Positions 59,997 to 64,000 of a stretch of 64,000 bases of DNA are shown here, one piece after another. Position 1 is the stretch's first letter; each line of letters opens with the position of its first letter. Source of the DNA: Brevundimonas subvibrioides (GTDB lineage Bacteria > Pseudomonadota > Alphaproteobacteria > Caulobacterales > Caulobacteraceae); contig NZ_CP114542.1 in assembly GCF_027271155.1 (NCBI RefSeq), positions 1,922,001-1,986,000 on the forward strand, written 5' to 3'. The position numbers were made by a program, and so were the translations under genes. The notes below the pieces were generated by a model. That model worked only from the letters and a program-made list of their open reading frames with translations, did not search any database and was not told the origin of the DNA.

Positions 59997-60024
59997 AATC
60001 ATATAAGGATATCCTTATATGATT
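59997..60024 (+). promoter_or_regulatory. 28-bp perfect palindrome, operator of the methionine operon
   Basis: The sequence from AATCATATAAGGAT to its exact reverse complement forms a perfect palindrome centred between 60010 and 60011. It ends 5 bases before the ATG of the ArsR-type regulator. It also contains TATGAT (60018-60023), which would place a transcription start at or near the start codon. Binding of the ArsR dimer here would block its own promoter and metF-metH. Confidence 0.8.
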
Positions 60025-60029
60025 TTCCC

Positions 60030-60992
60030 ATGTCCCTGACGGCCGAACATACAATCGAAGCCCTGCGCGCTGCCGGCGAGCCGACGCGGCTGCGCATCCT
60101 GTCGTTGCTGGCGGGAGAGGAGCTGTCGGTGATGGAGCTCAGCCGGGTTCTGGACCAGAGCCAGCCCCGGGTTTCCCGCCACCTGAAACTGATGACGGAC
60201 GCGGGCCTGATCGAGCGGTTTCCCGATGGCGCGAGGGTCTTCTATCGAGTCTCGCACGACGTGGACGCCCGGCGCCTGATCGATACGGTGCTGGACCTGC
60301 TGGACGATGCCGAGGGCGAGGCGGATCACGCCCGCCTGAACGCCGTCCGCGATGAACGCGCGACCGCCGCCGCCGCCTATTTCGAGACTGTGGCCCCCAG
60401 CTGGGACCGCATCCGGTCCCTGTATGTGTCCGAATCGGCGGTCGAGAATGCCATCGCCCGCGCGGCCGGGCCCGGCCCGTTCGACCGCGTCGTCGACCTG
60501 GGCACCGGGTCGGGCCGCATGCTAACCCTGCTTGGCTCCAGGGCGCGCATGTCGATCGGCCTGGATCTGAGCCAGAACATGCTCAACATCGCCCGCGCCA
60601 ATGTGGTCAAGGCGGGCCTGGACAGAGTCGAACTGCGCCACGGCGACATCTTCGCCACCCGTCTGCCCGGCCAGTCCGCCGACCTCGTGCTGGTCCATCA
60701 GGTGCTGCACTATCTGGTCGATCCGGCGGCCGCCGTCGCCGAGGCCGCCCGACTGGTCAGTCCCGGTGGAAAACTTCTGATCGTTGATTTCGCCCCCCAC
60801 GACCTCGAGCAACTGCGCGACGAACATCAGCATCGCCGGCTCGGATTTGCCGACGAGGAGATCGGCCGCTGGCTGGCAGACGCCGGTCTCGACGCCTCCG
60901 CCTCCATCGCCCTGCCGCCCGATACCGCAGGCCTGACCGTCACCATCTGGACCGCGACACGCCCGGCCGCAGCCAAGAGGAGCGTTGCCTGA
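60030..60992 (+). CDS. ArsR-family regulator fused to a SAM-dependent methyltransferase
   Basis: A 320-residue fusion. The N-terminal ArsR/SmtB winged helix is at about residues 8-90 (LRIL, MELSRVLDQSQPRVSRHLKLM), without the metal-binding cysteines of classical ArsR. A methyltransferase domain follows at about 110-320 with motif I VVDLGTGSG (154-162). It is the first gene of an operon with metF and metH and overlaps metF (TGATG). Similar proteins in alphaproteobacteria lie beside metF; a role sensing SAM or S-adenosylhomocysteine is inferred. No Shine-Dalgarno is evident before the ATG. Confidence 0.88.
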   Translation: MSLTAEHTIEALRAAGEPTRLRILSLLAGEELSVMELSRVLDQSQPRVSRHLKLMTDAGLIERFPDGARVFYRVSHDVDARRLIDTVLDLLDDAEGEADHARLNAVRDERATAAAAYFETVAPSWDRIRSLYVSESAVENAIARAAGPGPFDRVVDLGTGSGRMLTLLGSRARMSIGLDLSQNMLNIARANVVKAGLDRVELRHGDIFATRLPGQSADLVLVHQVLHYLVDPAAAVAEAARLVSPGGKLLIVDFAPHDLEQLRDEHQHRRLGFADEEIGRWLADAGLDASASIALPPDTAGLTVTIWTATRPAAAKRSVA

Positions 60993-61960
60993 TGGCCGCC
61001 ACTGCCACATCACTCGCGGACGCCCGCGCCCTGCTACTGTCGCCGCTGGGGCCGGTCGCGCGCGCCGGGAACAACGGCAATCCGGTCCGGGTTTCGTTCG
61101 AGTTCTTCCCGCCCAAGTCCGACGAAGCCGAAGCCACCCTGTGGAAGGCCGTTCGCCGTCTGGAGCCGCTGAACCCCGAATTCGTGTCCGTAACCTATGG
61201 TGCGGGCGGCTCGACGCGCGAGCGCACCCACCGCACCGTCCAGCGGATGCTGACCGAGACGACCCTGAAACCGGCCGCCCACCTGACCTGTGTCGAGGCC
61301 AGCCGCGAGGAGGTCGATCAGGTCATCCAGGACTACAGGGCCATCGGCGTCGACCACATCGTGGCCCTGCGCGGCGATCCACCCGGATCGGCGGTCAGCG
61401 GCGGGTCCGGCATCGGGGGCGTCTATCAGCCCCGCGCCGACGGCTATGCCAACGCCACCGAACTGGCCCGCGCGATCCAGCGCGTCGGCGGGTTCCAGAC
61501 CTCGATCGGCGTCTATCCGGAGAAACACCCCGAAAGCCCGTCGATCGAGCACGACATCGATGTGCTGAAGGCCAAGATCGACGCGGGGGCCACGCGCGCG
61601 CTGAGCCAGTTCTTCTTCGACATCGACGCCTTCCTGCGGTTCCGGGACCGAATCCGCGCTGCGGGTGTGACCATTCCGCTGCTCCCCGGGATCATGCCCG
61701 TGTCGAACTTCGCAGGATTGCAGCGGATGAGCGCGTCATGCGGCGCGGCCATCCCGGCCTGGCTCGCAGCCCATTTCGAAGGTCTGGACGACGATCCCGA
61801 GACGCGAAAACTCCTTGCGGCCTCCGTCGCCGCCGAGACCTGCGCCCGGCTGCAGGAGGAGGGATTTTCGGACTTCCACTTCTACACCCTGAACCGCGCC
61901 GACCTGGTCTATGCGATCTGCCGCGTGCTGGGCGTTCGGGAACAGAAGGCCGCGACATGA
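60992..61960 (+). CDS. metF: 5,10-methylenetetrahydrofolate reductase
   Basis: Flavoenzyme that makes 5-methyl-THF for methionine synthase. The 322 residues contain the TIM-barrel start VSFEFFPPKSDEAE, the phrase EFVSVTYGAGGSTRERT and ALRGDPPG, with GIMPVSNFAGLQRM later. The N-terminal 30 residues are an extension. Its stop overlaps the metH start codon (ATGA). Confidence 0.96.
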   Translation: MAATATSLADARALLLSPLGPVARAGNNGNPVRVSFEFFPPKSDEAEATLWKAVRRLEPLNPEFVSVTYGAGGSTRERTHRTVQRMLTETTLKPAAHLTCVEASREEVDQVIQDYRAIGVDHIVALRGDPPGSAVSGGSGIGGVYQPRADGYANATELARAIQRVGGFQTSIGVYPEKHPESPSIEHDIDVLKAKIDAGATRALSQFFFDIDAFLRFRDRIRAAGVTIPLLPGIMPVSNFAGLQRMSASCGAAIPAWLAAHFEGLDDDPETRKLLAASVAAETCARLQEEGFSDFHFYTLNRADLVYAICRVLGVREQKAAT

Positions 61961-63027
61961 CCGCCCGCGCCGAACGCATCGCTGCCCTCCACGCCGCCGC
62001 CAAGGCACGCATCCTGGTCCTCGACGGATCATGGGGCGTGATGATCCAGCGCGCCGAACTGTCCGAACAGGATTTCCGCGGCGACCGTTTCGCCAGCCAC
62101 AACGGCCAGATGAAGGGCAACAACGACATCCTGTGCATCACCCGCCCGGATGTCATCGCCGACCTGCACGACCAGTATTTCGCCGCCGGCGCGGACATCA
62201 GCGAGACCAACACCTTCTCGGCCACCGTCATCGCCCAGGACGACTATCACCTCGACGCCGATGCGGTCTGGGACATCAATCTGGAAGGCGCGAAGCTGGC
62301 CCGCGCCTCGGCCGACCGCTGGACGGGTAAGGAACCGCACAAGCCGCGTTTCGCCGCCGGCTCGATCGGGCCGCTGAACAAGATGCTGTCGATGTCGTCG
62401 GACGTGAACGATCCCGGCGCGCGGCTGGTGACTTTCGACCAGGTCTATGAGGCCTATCGCCATCAGGTGAAGGCGCTGAACGAGGGCGGGGTCGACCTTT
62501 ATCTGATCGAGACCATCACCGACACGCTGAACTGCAAGGCCGCGATCAAGGCCATCAAGGACCTTGAAGACGAGGGGATGGAGCCCCTGCCCATCTGGAT
62601 CAGCGGCACCATCACCGATCGGTCCGGACGCACCCTGTCGGGCCAGACCGCCGAGGCCTTCTGGAACAGCGTGCGCCACGCCAGGCCCTTCGCCGTCGGT
62701 TTCAACTGCGCCCTGGGAGCCGACCTGATGCGGCCGTTCATCGCCGAGCTGAGCCGGGTGGCCGACACCCTGGTCGCCGCCTATCCCAACGCGGGCCTGC
62801 CCAACGCCATGGGCCAGTATGATGAGGAACCGCATCAGACCGCCCATTTCATCGAGGAATGGGCGGCCTCGGGCCTGGTCAACATCGTCGGCGGCTGCTG
62901 CGGCACGACGCCGGAGCATATCCGGCACACGGCCGAGGCGGTGTCGAAACTGCCGACGCGGGAGATCCCGGAGCGGCCGGTGGCCATGCGGCTGTCGGGG
63001 CTCGAACCGTTCGAGCTGGTGGCGTGA
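61957..63027 (+). CDS. metH: Methionine synthase, homocysteine-methyltransferase piece (split MetH)
   Basis: A 356-residue protein equal to the N-terminal homocysteine-binding barrel of MetH: LDGSWGVMIQ, ETNTFSAT and the three zinc cysteines C251 (GFNCALGA) and C314/C315 (GGCCGTTPEHI). It ends where the pterin-binding domain would begin. Caulobacterales carry MetH as two proteins, so a stop here is expected. The next piece starts only at 63973, after an intervening two-gene module. Confidence 0.93.
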   Translation: MTARAERIAALHAAAKARILVLDGSWGVMIQRAELSEQDFRGDRFASHNGQMKGNNDILCITRPDVIADLHDQYFAAGADISETNTFSATVIAQDDYHLDADAVWDINLEGAKLARASADRWTGKEPHKPRFAAGSIGPLNKMLSMSSDVNDPGARLVTFDQVYEAYRHQVKALNEGGVDLYLIETITDTLNCKAAIKAIKDLEDEGMEPLPIWISGTITDRSGRTLSGQTAEAFWNSVRHARPFAVGFNCALGADLMRPFIAELSRVADTLVAAYPNAGLPNAMGQYDEEPHQTAHFIEEWAASGLVNIVGGCCGTTPEHIRHTAEAVSKLPTREIPERPVAMRLSGLEPFELVA

Positions 63028-63053
63028 CCCCATATACCCCCACCTCGGGCCCA

Positions 63054-63081
63054 TTGACACCCCCCATAGACCCCCTAGATT
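63054..63081 (+). promoter_or_regulatory. Probable promoter of the toxin-antitoxin-like module
   Basis: TTGACA (63054-63059), a 16-bp spacer and TAGATT (63076-63081) form a sigma-70-type promoter 30 bases before the ATG. AGGGAG lies 8-9 bases before that ATG. The gap from the metH stop (83 bp) otherwise holds only C-rich sequence. Confidence 0.5.
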
Positions 63082-63110
63082 CTCCTCTGCTGCTGACAGG
63101 GAGATTTGGC

Positions 63111-63530
63111 ATGGGCGCTCAAGCCGAAACCGCTGTAAAAGACGTCGTCGTCTGGACCAAACACGTCCATGGCGACCGCAGGGTCACCGCGCGTCTTCAG
63201 TCCCTGAAGGGCGGCGAAGACCTGGAACTCGTCGTCGATGGCGTCCGTGGCCTGTGGCGCAAGATGGCCGACGGGGTGGACGGGCGCCCTACGTCCGGCC
63301 TGCGTCCCGTCGGGCGAATGCAGACCTTCTGGAAGGAGTTGTATGCGTCACGTCGGGGGGAAACCGTTGTGATCGAACTTCCCGGCGATGAGGTCGCTGA
63401 CGCGCCGCTGATCTACCCCGCCGATCCCGACCCGAAGGTTCGGGCCGAGGCCTTGCAGGCCCTGTTGACGGCGGGCGGCGGGCACTCCCGCGGCGAACGT
63501 TGGACCCGCGACGAATTGTACGACCTATGA
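63111..63530 (+). CDS. Putative antitoxin partner of the PIN-domain protein
   Basis: A 139-residue protein that is coupled to the PIN toxin by an ATGA overlap. The order (small partner, then PIN toxin) is that of VapBC modules. The sequence (VHGDRRVTARLQSLKGGEDLELVVDGVRGLWRKM, RMQTFWKELYASRRGETVVIEL) is longer than typical VapB and shows no clear AbrB or RHH motif, so I do not assign a family. Function as an antitoxin is inferred from position. Confidence 0.72.
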   Translation: MGAQAETAVKDVVVWTKHVHGDRRVTARLQSLKGGEDLELVVDGVRGLWRKMADGVDGRPTSGLRPVGRMQTFWKELYASRRGETVVIELPGDEVADAPLIYPADPDPKVRAEALQALLTAGGGHSRGERWTRDELYDL

Positions 63531-63973
63531 TTTCCGCCGACACCAACGTCTTCGCCTACCTGTATGACGAAGACAGTCCGCAAAAGCAGGCTGTCGCGAG
63601 AGCTACGGTGGCAGCCCTGGCGGCGAAACAGGGAATCGTTGGCCTTCAGGTCGTCGGTGAACTGAACAACGTCCTGCGCCGCAAGATGGGTAAGACACCT
63701 TCAGAGGCCGCGCAGGCCGGGCGGCGTCTGATCGGGGCATTTTCGGTCTTCCCCCCCACCCGTCAGGCCGCGGTCTGGGCCCTTGAGCAGGCAGGCGCTG
63801 CGACGCTTCAGTACTGGGACGCCCTTCTGCTGGCCTCAGCGCGTCAGGCGGGCGTGGACACGCTTCTGACCGAGGATCTGTCCGACGGGGCCGAGATCAG
63901 CGGCGTCCTCATCATCAATCCGTTCGGCGAGCAGGGTCTGAGTCCGCGAGCGAGACAGGTTCTGGAGTTCTAG
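63527..63973 (+). CDS. PIN-domain ribonuclease, VapC-type toxin
   Basis: A 148-residue PIN domain with the acidic metal-binding quartet: D5 (SADTNVFAY), E45 (VVGELNNVL), D98 (YWDALLLASA) and D117 (TEDLSDG). VapC-type toxins cleave RNA, often tRNA anticodon loops. The start at 63527 overlaps the partner's stop; the stop TAG (63971-63973) shares its G with the start codon of the next metH piece. The module lies inside the metH locus. Confidence 0.88.
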   Translation: MISADTNVFAYLYDEDSPQKQAVARATVAALAAKQGIVGLQVVGELNNVLRRKMGKTPSEAAQAGRRLIGAFSVFPPTRQAAVWALEQAGAATLQYWDALLLASARQAGVDTLLTEDLSDGAEISGVLIINPFGEQGLSPRARQVLEF

Positions 63974-64000
63974 TGCGCCCCACCTTCATCAACGTCGGCG
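63973..64000 (+). CDS. metH: Methionine synthase, pterin/cobalamin piece of MetH (5' end only)
   Basis: Only the first nine codons are in the window. From GTG at 63973 they read VRPTFINVG, which matches the start of the pterin-binding domain of MetH (typically FINVGERTNVTGS). GGAG at 63964-63967, inside the toxin gene, stands 5 bases before this GTG. The rest is outside the window. Confidence 0.72.

Follow-up and report, generated by a model that had tools for sequence, protein, structure and literature searches.

A Putative Toxin–Antitoxin Pair at the Junction of a Split Methionine Synthase Operon in Brevundimonas subvibrioides

Anatomy of the Locus

The window analysed here, a 64,000-nucleotide stretch of the Brevundimonas subvibrioides genome (assembly GCF_027271155.1, contig NZ_CP114542.1, positions 1,922,001 to 1,986,000), carries a split methionine synthase operon with two small genes at the point of the split. 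The homocysteine half (metH1) and the pterin/B12 half (metH2) of MetH are encoded in separate, adjacent genes, and between them, in the same orientation, lie a gene for an antitoxin-like protein (AT) and a gene for a toxin-like ribonuclease with a PIN domain (PIN) (Table 1). An initial annotation of this DNA had described the two co-oriented genes and likened them to a toxin–antitoxin module. Both their placement and their toxin–antitoxin-like look, a PIN domain with a coupled small upstream partner, are borne out here.

The genes of the pair are tightly packed. A spacer of 83 bp separates the metH1 stop from the AT gene. Because the start codon of PIN is the ATG at 63527, its open reading frame (ORF) has 148 residues and its start overlaps the AT stop as ATGA. 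At the other end, the PIN stop TAG (63971–63973) and the GTG start of metH2 have one G in common (TAGTG), and the ribosome-binding-like site of metH2 lies within the toxin gene; the initial annotation had pointed to both features, and both are seen in the sequence. It had also supposed that metH continues past position 64,000, which is the case, as the frame from GTG 63973 encodes an 888-residue MetH2.

Table 1. Features of the metF–metH locus in window coordinates.
Feature	Position	Strand	Remarks
Perfect 28-bp palindrome	59997..60024		Directly 5' of the ArsR-type regulator gene; candidate met-operon operator
ArsR-type helix-turn-helix and methyltransferase domain fusion	60030..60992	+	Probable SahR-like regulator, 5' of metF
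metF (methylenetetrahydrofolate reductase)	60992..61960	+	4-nt overlap with metH1
metH1, homocysteine methyltransferase half of split MetH	61957..63027	+	PF02574, E value 8.9e-94
Operator-like repeat 1, CCCCATATACCCCC	63028..63041	+	Immediately 3' of metH1 stop
Promoter-like TTGACA-16-TAGATT of the pair	63054..63081	+
Operator-like repeat 2, CCCCATAGACCCCC	63062..63075	+	Between −35 and −10 hexamers, 34 bp from repeat 1
AT, antitoxin-like protein, 139 residues	63111..63530	+	N-domain about residues 4–89; C-tail with two predicted helices
PIN-domain toxin-like ribonuclease, 148 residues	63527..63973	+	PF01850
GGAG, ribosome-binding-like site of metH2	63964..63967	+	Within PIN gene
metH2 start, GTG	63973..64000	+	1-nt overlap with PIN stop; extends past the window

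The metH1–metH2 Junction as a Guest Slot

The MetH search covered 119 Caulobacteraceae genomes. MetH1 and MetH2 lie on one contig and strand in 114, and five had no MetH1 at the threshold. Judged by frame lengths, MetH is split in all 114, the longest open frame around MetH1 being 738 residues. The gap between the halves ranges from −1 to 4675 bp (n = 114); it is at most 10 bp in 21 genomes and at least 163 bp in 78. These data divide the insertion idea of the initial annotation. The pair is indeed strain-variable at the junction, and the metH halves of relatives are not always parted by it, but the pair as the agent that split metH is rejected, as all measured genomes of the family are split, including those with hardly any gap. 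Five empty junctions were read in the genus of the window: in three the metH1 stop runs over the metH2 start as TGATG, and two read TGAGTTG.

Guests were called in the 78 larger gaps, the 36 junctions below 163 bp being left out. Genes were found in 61 of them. Of these genes, 106 run with the operon and 4 against it, a count tilted towards the operon strand since the heuristic caller, which picks ORFs by length and codon-position GC content, weights minus-strand ORFs by 0.75. Eleven of 20 guest representatives match a Pfam family above cut-off, namely D-Ala-D-Ala-ligase-like, DUF6882, DUF4259, PNPOx-like, RidA-like, methyltransferase and amine oxidase families. Of 59 genomes, 29 have the stop of their last guest at −4 to +10 bp relative to the codon at which the metH2 alignment begins. 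The metH1–metH2 junction is thus a slot filled by varied, mostly co-oriented guests, and the AT–PIN pair is one of them.

The D-Ala-D-Ala-ligase-like ATP-grasp gene is a recurrent guest between metH1 and metH2 in genomes of g14 and g22 (e.g., L137, L151–L154), sometimes together with DUF4259, RidA-like and amine oxidase genes. The metF–metH1 junction is variable as well, at 783–893 bp in 10 of 29 loci, so that the operon is loose in general and looseness is not unique to the metH1–metH2 slot. Between metF and metH1, L025 has a methyltransferase-domain frame (538–1371), and L019 looks alike by eye, so that guests enter this junction as well.

The PIN Protein

The PIN ORF matches PF01850 with an E value of 5e-9, above the Pfam cut-off. 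Residues D5, E45, D98, E116 and D120 are invariant in 12 of 12 aligned rows, among which two row pairs are near-copies. Against the TIGR00028 VapC model the protein scores 20.7 bits, below the curated cut-off of 73.6, and PADLOC gave no match for either PIN or AT. The two genes stand side by side in 18 genomes (19 tree rows minus L164, which is G292 again), and one more pair is cut by a contig end. Twelve other Caulobacteraceae have the complete pair at the same junction and one further has it cut, so the two frames are not chance ORFs. Between the window and G183, AT differs at 14 synonymous and 2 nonsynonymous sites and PIN at 9 and 2, respectively; these small counts fit purifying selection.

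The AT Protein and Its Relatives

AT has no match at a meaningful E value among Pfam, NCBIfam and PADLOC models. Compared with the known DNA-binding antitoxin classes (ribbon-helix-helix, AbrB, helix-turn-helix and Phd), it shows no family match, and fold comparisons returned weak matches only. The AlphaFold2 model (predicted local distance difference test score 86, predicted template modelling score 0.62) has a compact N-domain of about residues 4–89 followed by two C-terminal helices. A sequence search, which scored the 8000 candidates with most words in common, found at least 333 relatives; all names given among the 120 matches listed are ‘hypothetical’.

Relatives without an adjacent PIN gene could have been orphan regulators. 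This was rejected, as at 10 of 13 such loci (L171, L172, L174–L179, L181 and L182, from Rhizobiales, Rhodobacteraceae and others) a PemK/MazF-like frame overlaps the AT gene. PF02452 is above cut-off in all nine scanned frames, and the L174 frame, which has an internal stop, was assigned by eye. No toxin was seen at L169, L173 and L180. The ten PemK/MazF-linked proteins have one common C-tail, unlike that of the PIN-linked ones, whereas the N-domain is homologous between both branches (hhalign probability 99.9%, E value 2.4e-37). For the PemK/MazF branch, a further search yielded 743 relatives, which may overlap with the 333 above; they have no Pfam domain and are named ‘hypothetical’ or ‘uncharacterized’ among the 120 matches listed. 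An N-domain joined to exchangeable toxin-binding tails is the expected design of an antitoxin. By this homology, AT would belong to an unnamed antitoxin superfamily in which one head serves two unrelated toxin types, PIN and PemK/MazF.

The N-domain also occurs apart from such toxins. In G083 (L201) it stands alone as a 93-residue gene (1504–1785) overlapping a McrC gene (1782–2882), and in G328 (L202, 1021–1785) it is fused to DUF6998, without PIN; PADLOC matches this DUF6998 weakly to the model of a methyl-directed restriction enzyme. The N-domain is possibly a DNA-binding module in common with restriction systems.

Promoter and Repeats of the Pair

The initial annotation had credited the pair with its own promoter-like sequence. 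TTGACA-16-TAGATT occurs once in 62900–63600, against a mean of 0.1 in shuffles. The two repeats of the window flank TTGACA and are spaced 34 bp apart. Runs of at least four G or C are enriched 5' of AT genes, with a mean of 3.9 per 90 bp as compared with 0.57 in the remainder of these mostly coding loci. The promoter comparison comprised 23 loci: G183, G072 and G290, near-copies of rows in the set, and L196, a duplicate of locus L164, were left out, as were L172, L173, L174, L176, L178 and L181, whose AT starts were not settled by the pattern. The enrichment was found at a local frequency below 0.05 in 21 of the 23 AT promoters, the exceptions being G219 and G205, and a −35/−10-like pair precedes AT in 13 of 23. 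The operator pattern of the window, with at most one mismatch, matches the genome twice, both times at the AT promoter and 34 bp apart; a reversed-pattern control also gave two matches, which makes genome-wide uniqueness weak evidence. The recurrence of G/C-run repeats at these promoters suggests that AT may repress its own promoter through them.

Distribution and Arrival of the Pair

The occurrence of the pair is patchy. The AT profile matches 20 of 390 Caulobacteraceae genomes, 14 at the metH junction, four behind carB and two with the N-domain only. Both genes are present at the metH junction in 13 (G000, the window, and G183, G049, G036, G072, G268, G091, G290, G292, G378, G389, G061 and G043), and in G337 the pair at this junction is cut by a contig end. 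The pair lies 66–107 bp behind carB in G205, G219 and G222, and in G213 (L157) about 0.8 kb behind it with a 188-residue frame in between; all four carB loci have the carbamoyl-phosphate synthetase Pfam domains. The carB-linked pairs are one clade from four genomes of the genus of the window (L205 = G205, L156, L157 and L159). A pattern scan of public genomes yielded 28 loci, mostly from the same genomes as the family search and one of them cut. Fourteen have AT with an adjacent PIN, 11 of these at metH, and metH was near none of the 13 loci without an adjacent PIN, within the fetched stretch of at most 5 kb per side. The sole pair outside the family, L170 from a distant alphaproteobacterium, stands between metF and an unsplit MetH frame of 1238 residues. 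A class-level AT search of 385 genomes found, besides the window's own genome, only G666, and this weakly (E value 1.9e-4). A phage or plasmid passenger finds no support, as AT has no match in plasmids, in phages or, as a profile, in viral contigs, where AT alone and not PIN was searched.

Within one genus, the window and G049 are 91% identical in MetH1, but only 44% in AT and 48% in PIN, a divergence of the pair similar to that between genera. The difference between 44% for AT and 91% for MetH1 argues for separate acquisition. In the AT+PIN tree the window copies go with G043 of genus g15 (86/86) and G049 with Caulobacter copies (89/90), neither grouping being starred, and the carB copies form one clade (100/100). 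Further, G024, G002 and G066 lack the pair though they are close to both Brevundimonas carriers on the metH1 tree. That tree has 40 rows, an opportunistic sample mostly of Brevundimonas, g14 and AT carriers. On its 39 family rows, presence of the pair needs at least five changes, or three if starred branches only are used. Presence is clustered, with five changes against a shuffled mean of 10.4 and none of 500 shuffles as low, which indicates that inheritance was partly vertical. No donor tracts were seen in the flanking metH DNA, so the route of arrival is inferred. Overall, the pair was probably acquired horizontally, in the lineage of the window separately from G049.

Interpretation and Alternative Readings

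The pair is probably an autoregulated type II toxin–antitoxin system that sits as a passenger in the metH1–metH2 guest slot and has taken over the stop–start overlap with metH2. It probably works like VapBC. The N-domain of AT would bind the G/C-run repeats around its own −35 and −10 hexamers and repress the pair, while its C-tail would wrap and silence the PIN ribonuclease; if AT fell, PIN would cleave RNA. Ribosomes finishing PIN would start metH2, partly by reinitiation, and horizontal exchange would proceed through the flanking metH homology. The PIN–metH2 overlap (TAGTG) appears to replace the metH1–metH2 overlap (TGATG) of the three empty relatives, so that synthesis of MetH2 should rely in part on the toxin gene being translated. 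With such coupling, losing the toxin would carry a cost for methionine synthesis, and this could be why the pair persists at this site. The locus would then be a natural case in which guest genes enter an operon between the halves of a split metabolic enzyme and apparently rewire its translational coupling, and it allows asking whether toxin–antitoxin genes gain stability by coupling to a metabolic gene. For a field reliant on family models, it would also add an unnamed antitoxin superfamily.

A tie of the pair to one-carbon metabolism, also raised in the initial annotation, is possible. In its full form, this reading has the pair kept at metH by a link between PIN activity and the methionine or one-carbon state of the cell. 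Cuts in initiator tRNA-fMet or in the met mRNA, for instance, would balance methionine-cycle output with translation start. Cleavage of initiator tRNA is reported for some VapC toxins (PMC5408214) and lends this some weight, as do the metH site in 14 of the 20 AT-bearing family genomes, the single clade of the carB copies, the lack of metH in the stretches fetched around AT loci without an adjacent PIN, and the distant L170, in which AT–PIN likewise separates metF from an unsplit metH (MetH1 54% identical). However, 370 of the 390 family genomes have no AT match, the same slot is taken by unrelated genes, one clade of the pair lives behind carB, and L170 is an isolated example, known from one metagenome-assembled genome. 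On balance, this full form is rather unlikely.

A broader proposal places the AT N-domain at the root of an unrecognised antitoxin superfamily swapping toxins (PIN, PemK/MazF and possibly restriction nucleases) via its tails, with a methionine-cycle-linked PIN branch that settled at least twice in the metF–metH operon, toxin translation setting metH2 output, and a PIN target such as initiator tRNA looping methionine supply to translation start. As a whole, this chain is unlikely.

A role in defence, with the pair as an abortive-infection unit against phages that has settled in a permissive operon, is very unlikely. The AT N-domain gene overlapping McrC and the fusion to DUF6998 speak for such a role, and the lack of AT matches among phages, plasmids and viral contigs counts against an origin from mobile elements, not against defence; however, neither protein has a PADLOC match and the immediate context is metabolic, with no defence island. 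Least probable of all is purely vertical descent, in which an old pair at metH was lost many times and never exchanged horizontally. That reading would suit the clustered presence (starred branches force only three changes), the L170 pair in the same operon and the grouping of most Caulobacter-type copies, two Phenylobacterium-type copies and the g2 pair in the AT+PIN tree, but not the contrast between MetH1 and AT identity within one genus or the unstarred placement of the window copies with g15 and of G049 with Caulobacter.

Relation to Known Systems

Like VapBC, the probable passenger pair has a PIN toxin whose acidic residues are conserved, a small partner encoded upstream, genes that overlap and a promoter-like sequence of its own. 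It differs in an AT without a meaningful family match, in direct G/C-run repeats with no inverted repeat shown, and in being embedded in a met operon. It is linked to PemK/MazF systems by relatives of its AT N-domain that are encoded ahead of PF02452 toxins, whereas its own toxin is a PIN protein and its AT tail ends in RDELYD, not in an EWxSPEDEEAF-type motif.

Both a split MetH and a module within a biosynthetic operon have precedents. In Thermus thermophilus HB8, an MNT-HEPN module lies in the lysine biosynthesis operon and is absent from a sister strain (PMC2701414). It is likewise a toxin–antitoxin-like module within an amino-acid biosynthesis operon; its toxin is another one, and the available text of PMC2701414 reports no recurrent slot for guests of many families. 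MetH in separate pieces is described for Sphingomonas koreensis and Phaeobacter inhibens (PMC7857596, PMC5764234), for which the available text of these papers reports no junction guests. Judged by titles and the starts of abstracts, no description of a PIN toxin–antitoxin pair at metH was recognised among the open-access papers that the literature searches listed.

Neighbouring Regulatory Features

A known riboswitch as a further control element of the window was rejected, with 0 Rfam matches at the gathering threshold. Upstream of metF, we infer that the ArsR–methyltransferase fusion gene encodes SahR and that the palindrome before it is a candidate SahR-type operator. For Caulobacterales, a SahR regulon is reported in 4 genomes out of 4, and the core regulon includes metH, metH2 and metF (PMC4239095).
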